From NCBI GenBank assembly GCA_013407085.1, contig JACCGJ010012970.1, positions 1 to 64,000 of the forward strand: a stretch of DNA of 64,000 bases, written 5' to 3'. The position numbers and the translations under genes are program-made. Position 1 is the stretch's first letter, and the number at the start of each line of letters is the position of its first letter. Positions 2,440-58,925 of the stretch are shown here, in pieces. Below the pieces are notes generated by a model, which did not search any database, was not told the DNA's origin, and saw only the letters and a program-made list of their open reading frames with translations. This DNA comes from Atriophallophorus winterbourni (lineage: Eukaryota > Platyhelminthes > Trematoda > Plagiorchiida > Microphallidae).

Positions 2440-2470
2440 TGTTTATTCATGCCTGGAGATCCTGATCCTA

Positions 2471-2515
2471 CTCTCCTTAATTAATGAGTGCAAGCAGAAT
2501 GAAATCGATGTTAGA
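2471..2515 (+). ncRNA. degenerate hammerhead ribozyme (HHR-1)
   Basis: Core-like order TAATGA, a GTGC stem-loop, GAAAT and TCGATG. The CUGAUGA box is altered (TAATGA), and the CCGGTC preceding the cleavage site reads TCGATG. Probably inactive; identified by alignment to the intact copy at 8256-8297. Confidence 0.5.
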
Positions 2516-2684
2516 GTGTTAGTTCGTGATGGGAATGCATTAAAATGAGGATTGTTTTGTTCGAGCTTTTGGCTTTAACCCACGTGTTTGAGAAAGTTTC
2601 TCGTGGCTACCTTATCCAACAGTGGAATACATCATGCTAACCATTTCTTCGCCGTTTGAAGACATGTAGATCCGGATCCAACTA

Positions 2685-2727
2685 TTCCTACTTGATGAGT
2701 GCAAACAGAACGAAACCGGTCTTCGTG
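2685..2727 (+). ncRNA. hammerhead ribozyme motif (HHR-1), C3 changed
   Basis: Reads TTGATGA, stem-loop GTGC-AAACA-GAAC, GAAA, then CCGGTC. Compared with the consensus, the first core base is U rather than C (UUGAUGA) and stem II has one mismatch. The strand that should close stem I (GTGGGG in other copies) has become a GT microsatellite. Likely inactive. Confidence 0.65.
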
Positions 2728-2747
2728 TGTGTGTGTGTGTGTGTGTG
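2725..2747. repeat. (GT)n microsatellite
   Basis: A short GT run directly after the hammerhead core, lying where other copies have the GTGGGGTGTG stem I strand. It may have expanded from that GT-rich sequence. Confidence 0.9.
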
Positions 2748-2829
2748 CGACGGAAATGCATGCAACTGCGGATTAGATGTTCTATATTTCGAATATGTTG
2801 ATATTTTAGAATAATGTAATTTTTAAAAT

Positions 2830-4796: not shown

Positions 4797-4842
4797 GGAC
4801 GTTTCGTCATCAAGCTAGATGACATCGTCAGCTGAGCTCCTT
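4797..4842 (-). ncRNA. hammerhead-like motif in PLE-1 3' region
   Basis: On the minus strand: CUGACGA, a 6-bp stem II (GUCAUC/GAUGAC), GAAA, then CGUC, matching the hammerhead core order with a very short stem III as in Penelope ribozymes. The flanks do not form a convincing stem I (only one pair next to the core), so it is either decayed or needs a longer-range stem. Position just 3' of the PLE ORF supports the assignment. Confidence 0.45.
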
Positions 4843-4906: not shown

Positions 4907-7100
4907 TCATTGATTGTTCTCAATTTCACACGATTTAATGTTCGGTTCCTCATTGACACATACATGTCGTCCAACGTGTTGATTCAATGATCGCGTTGTG
5001 GAGTGCCACGCCTTGAAGAATTTCCGTATGTGGCGCGTGCGTCCCCATTCAATGACTCTGGTTCCATTCCAGTTGACTTGGTGTCCTTCTTGGTCGACGT
5101 GAATTGATAGTAACGATTTGTAATCGTGCCTCCTTACCGCTGATTGGTGTTCACTCAGTATGGTAACCAGCCTCCTTCCAGTTTGACCCACGTATTGCAT
5201 CTCACAATCGGCGCACGGGATTTTTTAGACCACGTTTGTTTTGACTTCTTCTTTCAAGCTATCTTTCAATTTACACAGCTGATTGCGGAGTGTTCGCGTA
5301 TGTCTGTGTGCAACATTGATTCCGAGTGGTCGCATTACTCTTGTAGCGATTTCTGAAACATTCTCAATGTATGGTAAAGGTTTCCTGACCTGTGTGTTTG
5401 GTTGCTCCGTAGACAAGCTTCTTGTCGATTTGTATCAAATTATAAAGCTCTTCGGGTAACCGTTCTTCTTCAGGACATTGAAAAGGTATGATTTCGTCCT
5501 CTATCAGCGTTTCAGACGAGTTGCAGTGCGTCTGCGCTCAGTTGAACAGCGTTCGTACGCATCTCATTTGTGTGCAATCGAATGCTTGATTTTAAAGTTT
5601 AGAATTTTGTCCGTAAGTGTGTGCTTCCGGTAAACACTTGTCTGGAAAGATCCTTTGTCACTTCTAGTTACGAAGACATCCAAGAACAGTAGGCACCCGT
5701 TGATTTCAGTTTCTTTTGTGAACTGTATTCCTGTGAAGACGCAATTCAGTAGATTTTGAGCGATTTTTACTTGCGATTTGTTTATTATGACAAAGGTGTC
5801 GTCCACGTAGCCTACCCAAAGTTTCGGTTTTATTTGAGGAATGGCAATGCGTTTGAATCTCTACATTACTGCTTCCGTTATCAGTCCAGAGATAGGTGAC
5901 CCCATTGGAGCTCCTTTGACCTGCTCATACATTTTTCCATTAAACTTGAGACAAAGGTCGAAGAGCGTCATTAGTTCCTCATGAGTAACTCGATTTCCGC
6001 CATATGTTGTTCCGTGTTCCGTTAGCAGCGACTTTAAGGTCGATCGACGTGAATTGGGCAGTGACATCGAATGAGATCATCAGCTCGTAGTCAGGAATCT
6101 TCAAGTTTTGCAGTTTTTTGAGAAATTCCTCTGCCGATTGTTCGGAATGGTCCGAGCCTCTGACGAGATGTAGGAGTTTTCTTCGTAGTTCTTTCGACAA
6201 TCTATACGAGAGTGCTCCCGGCAGTGAAACAATTAGATGCAGTCAGATACCTTCTTGGTGCACCTTTGGTAGATCGCAGAATCGCGGAATTGAGGAATCT
6301 TCCGGTTTCATTTGGAAATATTCAACACTGGTAATCTGTGTCTTGAACTTCAGTCTTTTGAGAGCAGCGTTAATCTTGTTTTCTTGTCGTTTTATATCAT
6401 ATTCATTGACTTGCCGGTTGGTGGTCGTGTCCCGCTGCAGTTCTTCAGCTTCCTCGATGTAATCAACTTTATCCATGACTACCGTCATTCGCCCTTCGTC
6501 TGCTGGTAAAATGACTATGTTCTCTTCGTTTTTAAGTTGTTTGATGGGTTTCCTTTCCTCATAGCTAAGCATCGGGTGTTCTAAGTTTCTCTGCAATGTG
6601 GAAATGATTTTTTGCCGAATATTTTCCCTTGCGTCTTGATCCAGATACTGAGATTAGATTACATCCTCCAGACCTGCTAAGAATTCACTTGCGTCGGCAT
6701 CCCGATAATCAAAGTTTAGTCCATTTGCAAGCAGCCGTTTTTCGGTTGTTTTCAATTACATTGTTGAGAGGTTTCTCACCCATGTTTCTGCGTAATTATC
6801 CTATTCATGAGGCAATTCTTAGCAATTTCAAATCAAGTGTTCTTCGCTTCTTCATTTTTGCTCGGCTCGTTTTCATCTTAATTGATTTCTCCAGGTCATC
6901 TGTTAGTTGCTGCCCCATGTGGACGTCACACCTGGCTAGTTCTTCCTTCATTATAGCTTTGTTAATTGCACGTGGATGATTGAGGGTGGACGACGTTGTA
7001 AGCATTTCGGTGTTAGTCGGTTTCGTTTGCATTCGTGTAAAAAAAGCTGCTCGTTCGTTGATGCTGCTCTATGGCGGTATGTTTGGCATGGTCTGGCATA
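4907..7100 (-). pseudogene. Penelope RT plus GIY-YIG endonuclease, frameshifted
   Basis: Domains from N to C: an upstream region with ILPADEGRMTVVMDKVDYI (about 6510-6450); LPKVHQEG and SFDVTAQFTSIDL, the first catalytic Asp motif of Penelope RTs (about 6275-6040); GAPMGSPISGLITEAVM (about 5925-5861); YVDDTFVIIN, the catalytic YVDD box (about 5810); an RT-EN linker with GINVAHRHTRTLRNQL; then the GIY-YIG endonuclease with MQYVGQTGRRL, an H-x5-GH segment and VIEWG (5200-5000). The endonuclease nicks the target and the RT copies element RNA from it. The ORF is split into at least six overlapping pieces by frameshifts and stops, so it is dead. Order and motifs leave little doubt about the family. 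Confidence 0.88.
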
Positions 7101-7165
7101 CTTGAGCGTGTCTCGCCCAAAATTGTTCAATAGTTTGGGGAAATATCCATATTGCTAAAGTGAAA

Positions 7166-7989: not shown

Positions 7990-8255
7990 CCCGTTAGAAA
8001 CCTGGCTTTACGCATCAGTTTATCTGAAGACCGAGAAGTTTCTTGGTGCCGACGGAATAACTATTCTCATGTTCAAGCAACGTGCGTAATTCATATAACA
8101 TACACTCATATAAACAAGGAGCGCTTGTATGCCACTGTTGGATAAGGCCTGTACGACCGACCTGTTCAAAGCATGTGTCCAAACACATGTTAAATGGGGT
8201 TTAACCCATAACCATGAAACAAAATATTCATTTGCATGCTTTTCCGTCATTCACA

Positions 8256-8297
8256 CCCCACGACCGGTTTCGTGCTGTTTGCACTCATCAGGTAGAG
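8256..8297 (-). ncRNA. hammerhead ribozyme, all core bases intact (HHR-1)
   Basis: Minus-strand order: stem I strand CUCUAC, core CUGAUGA, stem II GUGC-loop AAACA-GCAC (four Watson-Crick pairs), core GAAA, minimal stem III CCGG, UC, cleavage site, then the second stem I strand GUGGGG. Stem I gives six pairs (C-G, A-U, U-G, C-G, U-G, C-G). Predicted self-cleavage lies between bases equivalent to 8262 and 8261. The two-pair stem III without a loop is the minimal form known from schistosome Sm-alpha and Penelope hammerheads, which often work as dimers. Confidence 0.85.
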
Positions 8298-8612
8298 ACA
8301 GTAAGATCAGGATCCGCATGCGCTTGAAACAGTGGATGAATGGTAAACAAGGAGCCCTTGTATGTCACTGTTGGATAAGGCTGGTATGACCAACCTGTTC
8401 AAAGCATGTGTCCAAACACATCAGACAACATGCAGATGCATACAAATAAGCATTTTGGTTCATGGTTATGGGTTTAACCCCATTATACATGTGTTTGGAC
8501 AAATTTTTTTAAACAGGTTGGTCGTACCAGCCTTATCCAACAGTGGCATACAAGCGCTCCTTGTTTACCATTCCCCCACGGTTTCAAGCGCATGCGGATC
8601 CTGATCTTACTG

Positions 8613-8655
8613 TCCCTACTTGATGAGTGCAAACCGAACGAAACCGGTCGTGGGG
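8613..8655 (+). ncRNA. hammerhead ribozyme motif (HHR-1), C3 changed
   Basis: Plus-strand partner of the inverted copy: UUGAUGA, GUGC-AAACC-GAAC, GAAA, CCGGUC and GUGGGG, with stem I strand CCCUAC. The conserved first core base is U instead of C and stem II carries a mismatch, so activity is doubtful. Confidence 0.7.
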
Positions 8656-9010
8656 TGTGAATGACCGAAAAGCATGCAAATGAATATTTTGATACACTCA
8701 TATACTTTTCTAGTACAACACTTATGAATATCGTGATTCCAAATCATTGGAAACGTGAAATAATTTCTCCTATTTATGAAGGAAAAATAACACCGATATT
8801 TTTAATTACCGGCCCATTACTTTTGACCTGTGATTCTTAAACTAGTTGAAAGCATTATTGGTGATGAATTAATGAAACATTTTGAAAACCATCAGGTGCT
8901 TCCAATAAATGAGAACAAGTGTAAACGAAATTATTCTTGCTTATCTAATCTGTCGATAACGGTGAACGATTTGTCTTAAGCGTTAGATGATGGTCAGGCG
9001 ATTGATATGT

Positions 9011-10295: not shown

Positions 10296-10831
10296 GTGAG
10301 TAATTATTTGTCTATAATTATAGTATAACACGCTAGATTTGTTGCGATGAATTTGTTTTTCAAATTGTGAAACCGACCCAGCTATAAAAACCATTTAAAC
10401 AGAACAATATTTTGGAAATTAAATCTTCCCAAAAATCAGATTATATGATTTCATATCGTTTTCCTTGCGATATGGGCTATATTATATTGTATTACTCATG
10501 TTTAGAATAATTTCATATAGAAACTGGCGCTGTTTGAAGGTGTAAAATAAGTGGATATGATGGCAATTTGTGCGTCGTTTAGTAAAATATGTCTGTTGAA
10601 TGTAACCTAAGTACATCGTTTTTCTTACTAGCATGTTTCATTGGAACAAAACCGTTTTTGTGCCAATGCATGGTTTGAATTCCTATCTACATGCACCGCT
10701 TGTATGGCACTGTTAGATAAGGCTGGCACGACCAACCTGTTCAAACACAGGTGTCCAAACAGATGCATAATGGGGTTTAACCAAAAACCATAAACCAAAA
10801 TGCTCATTTGCATGCATCTCCATCACACACA

Positions 10832-10874
10832 CCCCACGACCGTCTTCATGCTGTTTGCACCCATCAGTTAGGGG
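10832..10874 (-). ncRNA. hammerhead ribozyme motif (HHR-1), core changes
   Basis: Minus strand: CUGAUGG, GUGC-AAACA-GCAU, GAAG, ACGGUC, GUGGGG, with upstream strand CCCCUAA. Stem I is retained and stem II keeps a G-U closing pair, but CUGAUGA has become CUGAUGG and GAAA has become GAAG, so it is probably inactive. Confidence 0.6.
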
Positions 10875-11146
10875 CTGTATGATTGGGATCCGCATCTACT
10901 TGAAACAGTGGATGAATGGTAAACAAGTGGCGATTGTATGTTACTGGTGAATAAGGCTGATACAACCAACTAGCATGCAAATGGGCATTTTAGTTCATGG
11001 TTATGTGTTAAACCGCATTATGCCTGTGTTTGGAAACATGTGATTAAACAGGTTGGTAGTACAAGCATTATCCAGCATCGGGATACAAGAGCAACAGTTT
11101 TTCCATTTTTTCAATCTTTCAGCTAGATGTGAATCCTTATCCGACT

Positions 11147-11190
11147 CTTTCTAAAAGATGAGTGCAAATAAGACGATATTGGGTGTAGGG
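11147..11190 (+). ncRNA. degenerate hammerhead remnant (HHR-1)
   Basis: Recognisable only by alignment: AGATGA, GTGCAAATA, then ACGATATTGGGTGTAGGG in place of the GAAA and CCGGTC region. Core bases are lost. Confidence 0.4.
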
Positions 11191-11214
11191 TATATGTGTT
11201 TGATATGGAATTAT

Positions 11215-17814: not shown

Positions 17815-19632
17815 TACTTTAAAAGACCCACAGAAATGTACATCGGGTCGGATGCTAGACAATATCAAATTTTTTTGTTAAATGATTATTGTTAAACATG
17901 AACACATATATATGATATATATGATTATCGGAGGATACGGGTTTAGTAACAGATCGACCTATATAATATCCTTTGATCAACTTGCAGTTGAGCGATAAGA
18001 AGCTTTATTTCGAAAGATTCACTGGCATTTCATTGTCTAGCTTTGCGTCATGAGAAAAATGAGCACTGACAGCTTTACTATATTAGACAAGTCGTTTATA
18101 TATATTAGAAACATGAGCGGTCGAGGACGTATTCTTTTGGGATATTAAGAGCAAATTGTATTGACTCTGATAGCTCATTTTTCACTATCACGTACATCTA
18201 ACGGGATATTAACCGTTATTTAAACCATGAATAGAGTTTACCATCCGTAGGCAGGGAGTTTTGACTAGAGTAGTTCCTGATTGACAAGATCGAATGCTTT
18301 TAAAAAATCAATATGAATTACGTCAACGAAGTTGCCAACATCCGGTATCTCAGACCAGGCTTCTTTCGCTTATAGAATGCTTGTCATGCAAGATCGTATT
18401 CCTCCTGAATCCATGTTGTGCTTCAGAGAATAAGTTATAGATCTCAAGTTGATTCCGCAATGCATCAGCAATGATAGACTCCGTTACTTTAGATAGCACA
18501 GGTAATAAATCTAACGGATGATAGTTTACCGCATTTCTTCTTTCACTGCCCACGTAGATCGTAGGATTCATGGCAATTTTCTTGTTTTTTGCACGAAGTT
18601 ATGTTCGAGCATTATCTTGAACACCTCAGACGTCGATGTTGTCAATTCTGAAGACAGGTTATGCACAGGCTTAGGGTGTATATTATCTATTCCGGGTGAA
18701 CTTGTTTTCTTCATCGTCATTAATTTTGTTTTAACAACGTTCGAAAGGAATCCTAACTCGTGAATATTTTGCAGGCTGCAGCTTTTAGATTTCAGATATT
18801 GTCCATGGGTCAAATCGTGCGAGATTACTGATGCAAATTGCTGTCGAATAACGCTTTCACAATCTTTAAATGATTTAACTATGCCAGTAGGAGAATCAAG
18901 TGTCAGTATTCACATGTGTACACACCTTGGAGGTTGTTTACCTGTTTGTACAATGCTTTGGAATTCATGAAAATTTATTAGATTAGATAGATGTGGTAAT
19001 GTTTTCTATCATTTCGATTTAGGCAGACACACTTATTTCGTAATAATTTAGTTGCACCACTTTAGTCGTGACGGATCATTCAAGTACTTATTTCAGATTT
19101 TGCCTGGTTTACACATCTCGTTCCGCGTACTGCTTCTAAGATGCTTTTTGGATGCTGCTTGTTGCTTATTATTTGTAAGTTTGATGACAAAACAATGATG
19201 ATACGGAGTTGGTTGTAAAATGTTCCCATATTTCCTCAGCTAATCTGAGTTCAAGGAAATCCCGTCGATTGGCGGTAATAAGAGCTCGAAGCAAGTCATA
19301 GTTCATAGTTGTATATGTTCGTTGACTATTTTCTACTGGCTCGTATTGATAGGTATAATCAAATGTCATGACAACATGATCAAGAAGAAGAAGAAGAAGA
19401 AGAAATTGACTTTATTCATACACACGAATTTTCAGCTGTTACAATAATTTCACCACAAATTTAAAAAAATGATAAACATGTCTCTCACTCAATCGGAGTG
19501 GCGCTGCGGATGAAAGAGATTCGATCATGAGTTCTTTGTTTGTGAGTATGATGTCCAGGGTAGATGAAGTTTGTTCTGATCCAAATCTCGATGGTTGTTG
19601 TACATAGTTATAAAGTGGGGTTAAAGTAAACA
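17815..19632 (-). pseudogene. CR1-A copy 1: RT, linker and EN C-terminus
   Basis: Minus-strand translation yields the EN C-terminal part (IESLSSAAPLRLSE, then HVVMTFDYTYQYEPVE after the LINE-C interruption), a linker (KTSSPGIDNIHPKPVHNLS at about 18700), and RT motifs NYHPLDLLPVLSKVTESI and SEAQHGFRR (about 18500). The middle of the RT, including the catalytic boxes, is badly decayed or deleted. Multiple stops and frameshifts. Confidence 0.8.
19383..19487 (-). mobile_element. LINE-C 3'-end insertion with (TTC)n tail
   Basis: (AAG)n followed by AAATTGACTTTATTCATACA on the plus strand is the reverse complement of the LINE-C 3' end at about 27865-27914. It sits exactly between EN codons for LRLSE and DHVVMTF of CR1-A. 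About 100 bp long, so extremely 5'-truncated. Confidence 0.7.
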
Positions 19633-19900
19633 AGTTGCGCTTGTATACCGCTGTTGGGTAATGTTGGTACGACAAAACTGTTCCATCACACGAGCCCCAA
19701 TTCATGTATAGACTGAGTTTAAAACCCATGACCATGAATAGAAAAGGTTGTAAACCCAATCTACATGAGTGGGGGCTCATGTGATTGAACAGGCTGGTCG
19801 TACCAACCTTAGCCAACAGTGGCATACAATGGGCAGCTTGTTTACCATTCTTCCACCGTTTCGAGCGCATGCGGATACTCATCCTACTGTCCATACATGA

Positions 19901-21752
19901 TTCAATTCAATTCAATTCAATTCAATTCAATTTTAATGGTCTAAAAAGCATATAGCTATACAAAAACCACAGAAAAATATGGAAATTTACAAATAACATA
20001 TCTCAGTAAAAACGGGATTTGTTTGCTTACTGAACAGTTCGGGAATCAGGTAAAAATCCAAATGATAGAAACTGTTTTCACTCAGTGGAATGGCACATGT
20101 ATGTCCATGGGGTCGAGATGATTTGATGTGTGAGTTCAAAGTTATTAGGTTGTGGAATACATAGTCTCAATGTTCGGATGGGTCGACAGGAATTTGTCTA
20201 AGCTGGATTTGAATATGTCCAAGTTGGGTGCATGTGCAACATTCGAGGGTAGGGAGTTCCAAGTGAAACATACACGTACAGAATAAAAATATCTTCGACA
20301 GTTCAGTCGCGAGTCGGGAATTAGTACTGTGTACTCATGACTCCGGCTGGTTCTTGGTGGTTGTCGTGTGAATAGTGTATTAAGGGGATGGCTGGGGGTA
20401 TGCAATATGTTAAACATTAGGATCAGATCACCTCTAAGACTTCGGTAAGGAGAGTGGAAGAGGTTGAGGTTTGCAATACGATCTTCGTATTGTGTGAGCT
20501 GTAAGCCGCACACGAGCTTCGTGGTCCGATGATAGATTCGCTGCAAGAGATTGATGTCTTTCTTTAACTAGAGTGACCAAGCCTGAACCGCAAACTCCAT
20601 GGTGGGCCTCAAGTAGGTATTAATTAATCGATGAACCGTCGGCTTCGTGAAACTCCCAAACACGCGTTTAAGCAGAAGCAGTACTTTTGACGTCTTTTCC
20701 TAGACAGCCTTAACGTTGTGTGACGGTTTCAACGTGCTGCTCACCCACACACCCAAGTCCTTCTCCTTGTCAGTTATTTCAAGAGTGTGGGAACCAAGGG
20801 TGTAAGAGAACTCGAAGGGTTATTCAACTGTCAATACCTTGCATTTACTCACATCTAAAGGAAGTTCATTTCGAACCGACCATTCCTGTAAGACATTGAA
20901 GTCCAGCTGAAGCTGTCTGTAATCCTCAGTTGTGCGTACTTGTGTCCACAACTTGATATCATCCGCAAATAGCAAGATTTTGCACCGAACAAGTTTTGGT
21001 AAATCGTTTACATAGAGCAAGAAAAGAATTGGTCCAAGCACCGATCCCTGTGGCACTCCACTTGTTACTGTAATGGGCCGTGACAAAGCACCATTAACCC
21101 TTACTCGAATAACACGGTCACGGAGATAATCCTCCAACCAGGCTAGCGATGAGCCCTTGATGCCACATTGCTCTATTTTTTGTAGTAACGAACTGTGGTT
21201 AACACGATCGAATGCTTTGGACATATCCAGATAACAAGCATGTATGGTGAAACCTTTGTCCACAGCTTGTGTGCAGTCATCAAGGGCAAGAAGAAGGTTT
21301 GAAAGGCAAGAGTGTTTTTTTCTGAAGCCATGTTGTTCGATTGCGAGCAAGCAATTATCTTCCAGGTGATTTGTGATGCTGTTAGCAACGAGGCGCTATA
21401 TCACTTTAGGGATCACCGGTAGTAGTGTTACTGGTCGATAATTGAATACTTCAGAACGGTTCCCTCCTTTTTAGATGGGGGTAATGATACCAGTCTTTCA
21501 TTCACAGAGAAATCAACCTTGAGTTATAGAGAGGTTAAATAAGTAGGTAAGCGGTGTACACAAAGAATAGGCACAGCTTCTGAGGATCAGCGGGGTAATT
21601 TCATCAGCTCTAGGAGATTTTTCGTGTTGTGATTTAACAATGTACGGAGGACACTGTCCGAGCTAAAATTTAGTTGCTGTAAAACGTTTTCTGGCGAGAT
21701 CACGGAGGTCAAAGGACTGGTTACGGTGTTCGGTGGACTGAAGACAGTGGAG
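19901..21752 (-). mobile_element. CR1-B, 5'-truncated, inserted in a hammerhead core
   Basis: The 3' terminus on the left is (TTCAA)n plus AATGGTCTAAAAAGCATATA. The left flank ends in TACATGA, and the right flank resumes with AGTGCAAACAGAACGAAACC, so the element split TGATGAGTGC. The 5' end lies in the EN-RT linker. No long target duplication is visible, as expected for CR1. Confidence 0.8.
20145..21750 (-). pseudogene. CR1-B linker and reverse transcriptase
   Basis: From the 5' side: linker (FSTVFSPPNTVTSPLTS), then RT with AIEQHGFRKKHSCLSNLLLA, ACYLDMSKAFDRVNHSS, SGVPQGSVLGPILFLLYVND and the catalytic box LLFADDIKLW (20820-21350), then the C-terminal region QRIYHRTTKLVCGL and FTWNSLPSNV, ending ETMYSTT (20145-20546). 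Only a few lesions separate the blocks (a stop at about 20820 and a disrupted stretch 20550-20820). The core RT is otherwise well preserved. Confidence 0.88.
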
Positions 21753-21833
21753 AAGTGCAAACAGAACGAAACCGGTCGTGGGGTGTGTATGTGTGATGGA
21801 GATGCATGCAAATGACCTTTTATATTCATGGGG

Positions 21834-30479: not shown

Positions 30480-31615
30480 ATTAAATCTAACCGTGATGCG
30501 AAGGGGCGAAAGTCCAAAATTCGAGTTGAGGTTTTTGATTTCCACCAAAGCGGTTGGTGTAATAATTGGCAAAGGCGGTGGAAATATTCAACGTATCCGC
30601 GAAGAGCATTCCGTTAAAGTAACTATACCTGATAGTAATATCCCCGAAAGGGTGCTTGTGCTCGATGGAGATCTTGGCTCGATCATCGAAATCTTTATGG
30701 AAAATCTGGAACGAATGCAAAACAATCGCGATGATGGAGTTGACCTGAGATTGCTCGTTCACCAAAGCCAAGCTGGATGCGTCATTGGTAGAAGTGGATA
30801 CAAAATCAAAGAATTGCGTGAACAATCTGGCTTGCAAGTGTTGAAAGTGTATCAACTGCTTTGTCCCGGATCAACCGATCGTGTTATACAGCTTGTGGGG
30901 GCTGTTGATAAAGTTATCGAGTGCTTGCAGGCTATAGCTAAGCTTCTTGAAGGCGCTCCACCAAAAGGGTGCAGGCAGAATTATGATGCACGGGATGCTG
31001 ATGAAGCAACTGCTTCTGAATATGGTGGCTGGATTGTAAGTTCCCAAGGTCCTGGTTTGAGCTTCATACAGCGGAGTAATAATCTAGGAAACCCTGCGTT
31101 CAACCAGAACAATGTTCTAGCTGCCGGTATATTTGGTGCTGGAAATAATGGGAATATTGGCGGCTGATCTGGTGCACAATCATCTGCCGTAACGCAAGTC
31201 ATCGCTAATTCACTTCCTCATGCATCTGCTGCCGCCATGCTCGCAGCCACAAGTGGTCAGGCGCCCGGTAACGCTAATGCTGGACCAGCCGGTGATGCTC
31301 CCGCAACCGCTGCAGCTGCCATGATGGCTGCTGGCGCGAGGTTTGCCAAATCGCATGGCTATGAATTTCCTCACGCCCACAACCACGACTCAAGTTTCTG
31401 TGAGTAACAAAATGATGGGTGCCATTATGGGTCGTGGCGGTGCCCGAATAAAACAAGTTCGCGAAGAGTCGAATGCTGATATCAAAATTAGCAGACAAGA
31501 ACCTGGTGCTGAGGATCGCATCATCACCATAACAGGCACCCCTGAACAAATTCAGAACGCTCAGTTCCTTCTCCAAATGTGCGTGAAAAAGTACGGTGAC
31601 ATTAATGTCGCTTGA
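30480..31615 (+). pseudogene. HNRNPK-like: hnRNP K-like processed pseudogene (three KH domains)
   Basis: Intronless copy of a poly(C)-binding KH protein. KH1: ELRFLISTKAVGVIIGKGGG at about 30526, with the GKGG RNA-binding loop. KH2: LRLLVHQSQAGCVIGRSGYK at about 30751, then IKELREQ. KH3: [20 protein letters not shown] at about 31412, then DRIITITGT. Domain order, spacing and the C-terminal position of KH3 fit hnRNP K rather than PCBP. The first ATG at 30496 is plausible but may not be native; codons left of about 30480 come from the target site. Lesions: TGA at 31165-31167 and a +1 frameshift between about 31320 and 31345, before KH3. In hosts the intact protein regulates transcription, splicing and translation. 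This copy is a pseudogene. Confidence 0.9.
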
Positions 31616-38179: not shown

Positions 38180-38470
38180 CGTGTGTGTGGATCTATTCTA
38201 TCTATCTAATCATCGTCATTTCACTTGTCTTAAGTGTTGCTCACATCCCCTACACTTACACACCACTACCGGTAACTGGCTGTTTGCCGTCATCTGGTGG
38301 AGACAGTAAGATGAGGTTCAGTGAGCCTTGAAGCAGTAGATAAGTGGTAAACGAGATTTTACTTGAATACGGTTACATAGGGTTCTTACACTATGTGATT
38401 CTGTGTTTCAGGATCGTGGCTCGTTGTACGAACCCTATGCAACAGTGGGATTCATGTATGACTTTGTTTC
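38180..38470 (-). repeat. HHR-2 unit
   Basis: Shares with 54590-54730 and 58440-58925 the hammerhead at 38261-38305, AGTGGTAAACGAGA, and the GTTACATAGGGTTC ... GAACCCTATGCAACAGTG inverted arms (38370-38450). Non-coding; lies directly behind a Penelope endonuclease fragment. Confidence 0.65.
38261..38305 (-). ncRNA. degenerate hammerhead (HHR-2)
   Basis: Minus strand: CUCCAC, CAGAUGA (for CUGAUGA), CGGC-AAACA-GCCA, GUUA (for GAAA), CCGGUA, GUGGUG. Stems I and II are preserved while two core positions are changed. Confidence 0.6.
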
Positions 38471-38796
38471 TCACTTGTCTATATTAACAAACCTAACGAC
38501 TTCCATAGCCTGTGCATTTTTTTCCAATCCAGCTTAGTATTAACCAATTGCTTGCAATTAATCCTGATCTCTGTTCGTAATGACAACCTTATTTAACGAA
38601 AAATCATGTAAGAAGCGAAACGTTACCAATAAATTACGCTTTGGCCGATTATTCGCATACTTTATTTGTTAGGGATATGTTTCTCCGATCGCTCCCAAAC
38701 ATTTACAAATATTTTGTAGACAAATTATTTGTTTTCAATTCTTGAGTTATTTCAGGTGACTCGCCAAGTTTCGCGCTATATTTAGAACATTAAATC

Positions 38797-57539: not shown

Positions 57540-57790
57540 ACCCATAAGCACCTTGATTACTTGACCAAGAATCACTTTGTGATTCCGTGACCGAACATCG
57601 TGGGTCGTTGTGCGAACCCTACGTAACAGTATCATTCAAATATATGTTTGATTATCTCATTCACTGTATCAAGGCTTACTGAACTTTGCTCTAGCCAATC
57701 GTTTTTCATATTTTGTTTTCATGAAATCACACTCGATTTCATGCACCGGAGTGCATGACTCTGGGCCACACCTGAATCTATACATGCTGT
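57540..57790. repeat. HHR-2-associated repeat without hammerhead
   Basis: Shares with 58780-58925 the blocks TTTGATTATCTC, TCAAGGCTTACT, AATCACAC, TTGATTTC and GAGTGCATGA. The segment that carries a hammerhead in other copies is not seen here. Confidence 0.6.
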
Positions 57791-58439
57791 TTTGCTTCTG
57801 TGTTTGTACTGATTTCTGTCTGACTCATGGTTCATGCACAGTCTTTCGTGGTACATAAAAACACGACTATTGTTTTGTTGATAATGTTCAACTGATTTAA
57901 AAATCGATATCGTATAGCATTTTGTATTAGCGAACTCTCTTTATTATGGTTATAAATTTTCAATATAAATTCGTGCGAAATTACATACAAAAATGATGAA
58001 TGAAATAATTTTATTTGAGTTGGGAAATGTTTCAATGTTTCATGACTGCCATCAAATATTTCTTTTTTCATTTTTAAATCTAAGCGAAAATTTCAAACAA
58101 TTCTCTGGCCAATTTGCGAATTCGTGGTTTCAAAGATTCAGCAATGTATCGGACAAGGTACGTGACCAATCAAGGAATCATATTCATTAAAAATGAAAGT
58201 TCCTAATGAATCAGTGAGAGCAGTTTATTAGTAACGTTATTATCATGATTATGATTTCCAAATCGATAACAAACCTTTTCCATTATATTGATGAATCTTA
58301 CGAACCACGAGTTCGCAAATCGGCCAGCGAGTTTGTACGAACAGCCGAAGTAGAAACCAGAGGGACGAATCATCGAGTATTGCTCAAGCACTCATGGCGC
58401 TTATGGATTACCGAAGTAAGGTGTTGCTTACATCATCCA
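57791..58439. other. unassigned
   Basis: AT-rich. Only AATGAATCAGTGAGAGCAGT (58204-58223) matches the Penelope end at about 34945-34965. Nothing else recognised. Confidence 0.4.
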
Positions 58440-58447
58440 CACATACA

Positions 58448-58488
58448 TCACTACTGATTTCTGGCTCTATGTCTACATCAGGTGGAGG
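58448..58488 (-). ncRNA. hammerhead motif (HHR-2), partly degenerate
   Basis: Minus strand: CUCCAC, CUGAUGU (for CUGAUGA), a disrupted stem II, GCCA, GAAA, UCAGUA, GUGAUG. GAAA is intact; the last core A and stem II are changed. Confidence 0.6.
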
Positions 58489-58689
58489 TAGTAAGATTTG
58501 TTTCAGTGAGCCTTGAAACAGTGGATAAGTGGTAAACAAAGTTATACTTGAATGTCACTATTACATAGGGTTCGTTCAACTAACCACGATGTTCAAACAC
58601 AGAATCACACAATGATTCCTAGTCAAGCACTAAAAGGCAAACATAGATGACCAAAGACATGCGATGCAGTCATCCCTCGCACTTACACA

Positions 58690-58732
58690 CCACTACCGGT
58701 TTCTGGCGGGTTGCCGTCATCAGGTGGAGACG
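58690..58732 (-). ncRNA. hammerhead ribozyme, near-intact (HHR-2)
   Basis: Minus strand: stem I CUCCAC, core CUGAUGA, stem II CGGC-AACCC-GCCA (three pairs plus C-A), core GAAA, stem III CCGG, UA, then GUGGUG. Stem I has four consecutive pairs (C-G, A-U, C-G, C-G). Compared with HHR-1 (CUCUAC/GUGGGG), the changes preserve pairing. The cleavage triplet would be GUA. Confidence 0.78.
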
Positions 58733-58925
58733 GTAAGATTAGTTTCAATGAGGCATGGAACAGTATTATTCAAGTATATATTTGATTATCTCTTATCCAC
58801 TGTTTCAAGGCTTACTAAACTTTGCTCCGGCCAAACGTTATTCAAATTTTGTTTTCACGAAATCACACTTGATTTCTTCATTCATACATCAGAGTGCATG
58901 AGTCTGGGCCACACCTGAATGATAC

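Follow-up and report, generated by a model that had tools for sequence, protein, structure and literature searches.

Copy A, a 579-bp head-to-head insertion carrying two hammerhead motifs, is most likely a retrozyme of the animal (non-LTR) type, a non-autonomous retroelement with hammerheads, whose insertions bear a Penelope-like signature. It lies in a repeat-rich flatworm sequence of 64,000 b with a G+C content of 39.9%, the whole of which was analysed and is referred to here as the window. We think it probable that copy A arose when a multimeric RNA was reverse-transcribed at its target by two-ended, Penelope-type target priming. The initial annotation had proposed a mobile element that is non-coding, has hammerheads and target duplications, and is kin to retrozymes and Penelope pseudo-LTRs (pLTRs); this much is supported. 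The element most likely does not represent a new class replicating in inverted-dimer form, and the inverted pairs look like one form of insertion.

Animal non-LTR retrozymes consist of tandem repeats of 150-450 bp with type I hammerheads, and platyhelminths are among their hosts (Cervera and de la Pena 2020, PMC7229834). They form dimers up to tens-mers, are expressed as small circular RNAs and have a highly self-paired unit-length RNA. Candidates for their mobilisation are LINEs or Penelope-like elements, the latter being called a strong candidate because both they and the retrozymes have type I hammerheads, occur as tandem copies and are found in the same hosts (PMC7229834). A review repeats the LINE and Penelope candidates, and states that no conserved motif in retrozyme repeats points to the partner.

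Copy A and its surroundings comprise the following features (window coordinates).

8113-8691, copy A, 579-bp head-to-head insertion inside a retrotransposon that we take to be CR1-like
8100-8112, left copy of the 13-bp target site duplication ATACACTCATATA
8692-8704, right copy of the 13-bp target site duplication ATACACTCATATA
8113-8219, minus strand, partial direct unit (nhmmer, unit model positions 2-107), its outer end being site M (after CTTGTT)
8220-8421, minus strand, inverted unit with an intact-looking hammerhead, arm start at unit position 32
8438-8691, plus strand, forward unit (T arm), start at unit position 214, its outer end being site T (AATATTTTG)
8256-8297, minus strand, type I hammerhead, core CTGATGA...GAAAC, stem III ACCGGT (Rfam RF00163, Hammerhead_1, 30.9 bits, E 1.1e-5)
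8614-8655, plus strand, decayed type I hammerhead (Rfam RF00163, 20.4 bits, E 0.033)

The perfect 13-bp duplication that had been reported around 579 bp is borne out, with exactly that length between its two copies. Between random window sites 300-900 bp apart, an exact shared 13-mer was seen in 3 of 20000 trials with a slack of +-12 nt and in 0 of 20000 with +-2 nt. When copy A and one 13-mer are removed, the joined flanks give a continuous, one-frame alignment of 174 residues (45.1 bits) to an RT-type protein from another part of the window, whereas the uncut sequence aligns as separate pieces of 30.0 and 26.9 bits. Excision therefore restores an RT-type reading frame, that is, an empty site, and copy A is a true insertion. 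An ORF related to its target is RVT_1 by Pfam.

Self-comparison of copy A shows that insertion positions 108-579 form an inverted repeat and that positions 1-107 are a further partial unit, overlooked in the initial annotation. On the minus strand the reading order is inverted unit, unit, partial unit. As the partial unit stands in tandem with the inverted unit, copy A consists of ~1.4 tandem units that meet a single unit head-to-head. The inverted unit and the forward unit described earlier, each with a hammerhead, are confirmed: the arms are identical at 184 of 199 aligned positions (gaps not counted), and both hammerheads match Hammerhead_1 of Rfam, below the curated gathering score of 34 bits.

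An Rfam scan of the entire window at the curated threshold returned zero RNA families. RF00163 type I matches are also present in genomic array units, one of which reaches the gathering score. Decay of the plus-strand hammerhead in copy A consists of TTGATGA instead of CTGATGA, together with a stem II mismatch. A simple hammerhead core pattern fits 270 of 355 full genomic units and fails in 85. The helix III position is ACCGGU, one A-U pair over the palindromic CCGG, a layout of the sort reported for one axolotl hammerhead type that is more active as a dimer (PMC7229834). In 22 chosen divergent copies 78.8% of the cells at hammerhead pair positions are paired, compared with 74.4% in shuffles and 28.8-50.0% when the partners are slid. 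Stem II pair 27-37 is U-A in 13 rows and G-C in 9, and is broken in none; two pair positions are unpaired in 12 and 11 of the 22 rows, respectively. Pairs changed on both sides number 2 in these copies against a shuffle mean of 3.2, which is no excess. The hammerhead fold is supported by this comparison of copies, and self-cleavage is predicted.

A unit profile built from 15 window pieces gave 20 matches in the window at E <1e-3, in both orientations and with the 15 model pieces included. Head-to-head copies are A, B, C, F and partly H, direct tandems are D and a copy at 57.5 kb, and fragments are E, G and a copy at 12.9 kb. Those that bear on the argument are as follows.

10688-11209, copy B, plan as in copy A, older, with a different centre and without a clear duplication
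19614-19901, copy C, two partial arms head-to-head, without a complete hammerhead
2451-2774, plus strand, copy D, direct tandem of ~1.4 units that ends near T, with a candidate 9-bp duplication TTAGATGTT
38231-38470, copy F (second subfamily), head-to-head
58417-58819, copy H (second subfamily), tandem plus head-to-head piece

The copies at 10.7 and 19.6 kb had been read as repeats of the plan of copy A. The first has the same unit plan, but its centre is ~44 bp shorter. The second does contain two arms head-to-head, but its forward arm stops inside the hammerhead at an (ATTCA)n run, its other arm ends before the hammerhead, and the 13-bp duplication with one mismatch that had been claimed for it was not found, since no 13-mer with at most one mismatch is shared between 19441-19800 and 19781-20150. 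Copies F and H are members of a second subfamily, which has a different stem II and a GUA cleavage triplet. Copy F has a candidate 10-bp duplication TCACTTGTCT (38221-38230 and 38471-38480; 9 bp in the fixed search frame), the right copy of which is also similar to unit sequence. Second-subfamily copies at 57560-57760 and 58755-58890 share sequence past the unit (CTTTGCTC..GCCAA..), which may be a longer variant or a duplication.

A genome search with copy A (537-Mb assembly, 15,840 contigs), which placed the window at C8224, gave 333 matches in the 40 of 6192 candidates that were scored. Stretches from 33 contigs in the best-scoring part of this search were fetched for end statistics, so that arrays are over-represented. 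At these best-scoring loci the unit is found mostly in direct tandem arrays with a period of 232-233 bp and one to tens of units, the longest having 33 unit matches in one fetched stretch. Inverted matches occur at array ends (L009, L010, L011), between opposed arrays (L021, L028, L029, L032) and as short inserts (L025, L039, L041). The 355 full units yielded a 228-column consensus; with its linker the unit is 233 bp long and has 45.5% G+C (unit position numbers are ~4 above model position numbers). It is non-coding, the consensus frame stopping after 13 codons and an RT/GIY-YIG ORF being absent. The predicted fold of a 233-nt circle is 59% paired (z -1.9 vs 200 shuffles).

With a type I hammerhead per repeat, a tandem period of 232-233 bp, G+C <50%, no ORF and target duplications >4 bp, the unit resembles animal non-LTR retrozymes (PMC7229834). 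It differs from them in its head-to-head inserts and two recurrent 3' ends, and the words 'inverted' and 'head-to-head' occur 0 times in the main text of PMC7229834. No published description of a head-to-head arrangement in retrozymes was found in a literature search that covered few subscription papers. The unit is also like schistosome Sm-alpha, a non-autonomous fluke repeat with a type I hammerhead, to which it is likened by description only (PMC6155905). Plant LTR retrozymes (PMC4918200) are likewise non-coding with a hammerhead in each repeat (PMC7761336). Unlike these, which are described with a 4-bp duplication, a PBS and PPT and a type III hammerhead (PMC7761336, PMC7229834), the unit has a type I hammerhead and target duplications of 8-14 bp.

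Two positions recur at the outer ends. Site T lies 42 nt after the predicted hammerhead cut and site M 84 nt before it, the T-M distance being 126 nt. Across the 33 loci and the window, RNA-sense 3' outer ends fall at T (model positions 225-229, ...AATATTTTG) in 21 of 61 cases and at M (103-110, ...CTTGTT) in 10 of 61, and 30 of 61 lie outside both. The 5' outer ends are scattered, with 0 of 27 at T and 1 of 27 at M (Fisher 8e-6 vs the 3' ends). Excluded from the 3' set are the end at L029 3534, which runs on into the next unit, and all ends <=60 nt from a stretch edge. As the profile stops at 229, ends early in a following unit also appear as T; by eye, most T-type flanks depart from the unit within a few nt, and that of L016 after ~8.

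Target duplications of at least 8 bp were found for 7 of 39 elements compared with 34 of 1482 mismatched flank pairs (p 5e-5), and duplications of at least 10 bp for 2 of 39 compared with 5 of 1482 (p 0.012). This set comprises all 39 clusters (of 56) with >30 nt of flank on both sides. An earlier count of 7 of 24 against 7 of 552 used clusters picked after their flanks had been viewed, and the 39-cluster repeat is therefore the figure relied on. The duplications measure 14 bp at L035 (a direct array of four units), 13 bp at copy A, 9 bp at copy F (10 with other trimming), 9 bp at copy D, and 8 bp at each of L009, L033 and L025. About one of the seven is expected by chance, and that of L033, which overlaps unit sequence, is the weakest. 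Three inverted inserts (A, L009, F) have a duplication of at least 8 bp.

Unequal exchange and inversion of a satellite DNA, with no reverse transcription involved, would account for the long homogeneous tandem arrays. Recurrent 3' against scattered 5' ends, target duplications and the restored empty site make it a barely credible source of the inserts. T and M at 3' ends beside target DNA, with 5' ends that vary, are the mark of target-primed reverse transcription from fixed sites. The machinery could in principle be that of a LINE (CR1 or RTE) acting with twin priming in a SINE-like manner. Twin priming also yields 5' inversions, duplications of 8-14 bp are compatible with LINEs, and the window contains several RVT_1 ORFs. 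Against this, neither poly-A nor a simple repeat is present at T or M in the listed ends (by eye), the wide overlap of the arms calls for two templates or one multimer, and Penelope-like elements of the same genome have the same head-to-head form; mobilisation by a LINE is thus, in our view, distinctly improbable.

The centres of the inverted inserts bear on whether these replicate as such. Twelve inverted clusters were found; among their right ends, the one recorded for L029 is not genuine. Strict T and M ends are combined in 2 of the 12 (A, L009), and L025, F, B and L039 come within ~16 nt of this; in none of the twelve is the same site found at both true ends. Arm starts on the repeated consensus could be given for ten centres.

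Copy A, 214/32
Copy B, 213/59
Copy C, 14/229
L009, 208/11
L010, 51/215
L011, 175/85
L021, 38/78
L029, 191/206
L032, 114/154
L039, 186/51

No two arm-start pairs agree, and all ten mapped centres differ. L021 and L028 have one common centre but resemble duplicates of one locus. Arrays at L013:2292, L021:1592 and L028:1934 end at unit position 171-173 against one flanking repeat, and these shared ends are probably duplicates of one locus, unless this junction to another repeat has arisen more than once.

Replication in inverted-dimer form, at least in A and B, would suit the likeness of these two copies, which agree in unit number, combine an outer end at M with one at or near T (roughly so for the forward end of B), and begin their T arms within 1 nt of each other. 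The difference between their centres could stem from a single deletion. T-arm starts of A, B and L009 lie within 7 nt, so that the starts alone leave room for a common origin and later deletions. However, the M-arm starts of the three are 32, 59 and 11, the seven other mapped centres are unlike these, and direct arrays have the same outer ends. The forward arm of copy A shares 96% identity with the array consensus and 94% with the inverted arm of the same copy (unit positions 62-233), against 66% and 79% with the forward arms of B and L009, B being decayed throughout. In a tree of unit positions 62-233 the two arms of one locus pair with each other at B, L010 and L029 (support 0.71-0.77), and at L009 with negligible support only. 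The tree and the identities speak against a common origin of the A, B and L009 inserts. With direct arrays dominating the best-scoring loci, centres that differ and corresponding arms ungrouped in the tree, the fixed inverted-dimer architecture earlier suggested for the class is not supported; replication as a fixed element is disfavoured, and we regard it as very unlikely even for A and B, where it remains arguable.

Snap-back self-priming as the sole origin of copy A is also disfavoured, as its M arm is more than one unit long and ends at a site other than that of the T arm. The 15 of 199 positions at which its arms differ could equally be later mutations. Arm starts fall at 191-216, directly after the predicted cut at 191, in 6 of 20 cases (p 0.019) and at 186-230 in 8 of 20 (p 0.026), both intervals having been chosen post hoc. 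In L029 both arms begin at, or <=15 nt after, the predicted hammerhead cut. Among direct arrays 0 of 27 have a start near the cut, in a profile that short leading pieces would escape. Hammerhead-made 5' ends at the centres are suggestive only.

Under the proposed two-ended mechanism the template would be multimeric transcripts, either tandem or circles read more than once. A staggered double cut would provide two 3' ends, each of which would prime cDNA synthesis at T or M. Both cDNAs would then proceed toward the RNA 5' side and be joined at their meeting point, and the centre would vary as a result. The enzyme would most likely be Penelope-like (RT plus GIY-YIG endonuclease); the end positions, the target duplications and the same arrangement in this genome's Penelope-like elements suggest a Penelope-type RT as the mobiliser.

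Published Penelope-like elements offer close parallels. The A. vaga element Pen2a has two direct pLTRs and an adjacent inverted pLTR with a 9-bp duplication, and 22 codons are given for pLTR plus tail (PMC3846280). The Anolis enzyme (PAc) is described as cutting and extending both DNA strands, with two adjacent internal RT start sites that bound the 'tail', and its element has 26 nt from the ATG to the hammerhead cut; in vitro, insertion proceeded with no need of hammerhead cleavage, and no RNA reads ending at the cleavage site are reported there (PMC11167929). The ATG of our unit sits within the hammerhead core, the predicted cut being 27 nt and site T 69 nt from it. Like these elements, the unit has a head-to-head inverted terminal unit, a short target duplication, a hammerhead overlapping the ATG and two alternative end positions (PMC3846280, PMC11167929). 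It is unlike them in having no RT/endonuclease ORF and in forming long ORF-less arrays, and its T-M distance of 126 nt compares with ~30-40 nt for the published Penelope tail.

Penelope-like elements are present in this genome. A broken one lies in the window at 4970-7142 on the minus strand (tblastn vs six Penelope-like proteins, best E 5.7e-157), and a search for its target duplication gave two 8-mers only. A hammerhead-like stretch of this element at ~4797-4831 (minus strand), seen by letter pattern and by eye, has a longer stem II and is unlike that of the unit. A genome search with P0124 gave 54 scored Penelope-like matches, 30 of them without an internal stop; many stand in tandem, their matched stretches being separated by 64-187 nt. 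Runs of two or three such ORFs have equal spacing within a run (98 nt in C10209, 83 nt in C13126, 64 nt in C10286). In C9552 two open Penelope-like elements stand head-to-head, with 99.5% identity between their inverted arms across 600 bp of fetched sequence. By eye, ORF starts of the abundant Penelope clade have a motif that resembles a hammerhead with a stem II of 6 bp; Rfam at E up to 1 gave no hammerhead on two junctions of this clade (L044, L045). One Penelope-like copy has its 3' outer end at +108 from the ATG, compared with +69 for T of the unit, and a start site of the Anolis enzyme at 111-118 nt is near that position (PMC11167929). No target duplication was found for this copy or at C4155. 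Pfam on single Penelope pieces returned nothing useful. The sequence GAATATTTT, common to T and to one Penelope copy near its 3' end, was taken as a chance match because other Penelope copies differ there. Rfam HH9 is a family known from amniote introns, and a match to it (42.5 bits, E 4e-8, gathering score 52) was observed at L054:1729-1800 (C4155:28428-28499), at the start of a 5'-truncated Penelope-like copy, with a second, weaker match at L054:1474-1544.

The kinship could be closer still if the unit were the pLTR and ORF start of one Penelope-like family that has lost its ORF, the inserts being ordinary ORF-less Penelope copies. The ATG in the hammerhead core, with the cut at +27 and T at +69, would fit this, as would the minimal hammerhead, a form reported for Penelope-like elements (PMC6155905), and the head-to-head arrangement with target duplication known from A. 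vaga Penelope. In copy E (21737-21821) the corresponding frame continues through the tail by eye. Against this reading, the consensus frame stops after 13 codons, and no Penelope-like ORF continuous with the unit was found. The unit has no similarity to, and shares no pLTR sequence with, ten stretches (junctions, ORF ends, a centre) around Penelope ORFs of one abundant clade of the same genome (best E 1.9). A search of L009-L041 and the window located Penelope pieces (E up to 1e-5) nowhere but in L015, L022 and the window itself; none, including those beside arrays in L022 and L015, is fused in sense to the unit. To our knowledge, long ORF-less arrays are not typical of pLTRs. On this evidence descent of the unit from such a family is unlikely. 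Since the ten stretches lack similarity to the unit, the Penelope-like partner in the retrozyme reading is a putative one.

As a tentative extension, possible though not probable in our estimation, animal retrozymes as a class may integrate by Penelope-type two-ended priming at two fixed sites on hammerhead-processed multimeric or circular RNA, the cDNAs meeting head-to-head. If this were true, junctions would record RNA 5' ends (compare L029). End positions, duplications and head-to-head centres make the question of the retrozyme mobiliser testable on any assembly.

Two further features of the window were observed. At 30490-31164 on the plus strand there is a coding stretch that resembles hnRNP K and stays open for 225 codons; it is either a retrocopy or one exon and is closest to fluke proteins (an unnamed protein 82%, Fasciola gigantica 80%, Paragonimus 78%, Schistosoma 75%). 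The window begins with an ATAG microsatellite of 156 copies at 1-622.
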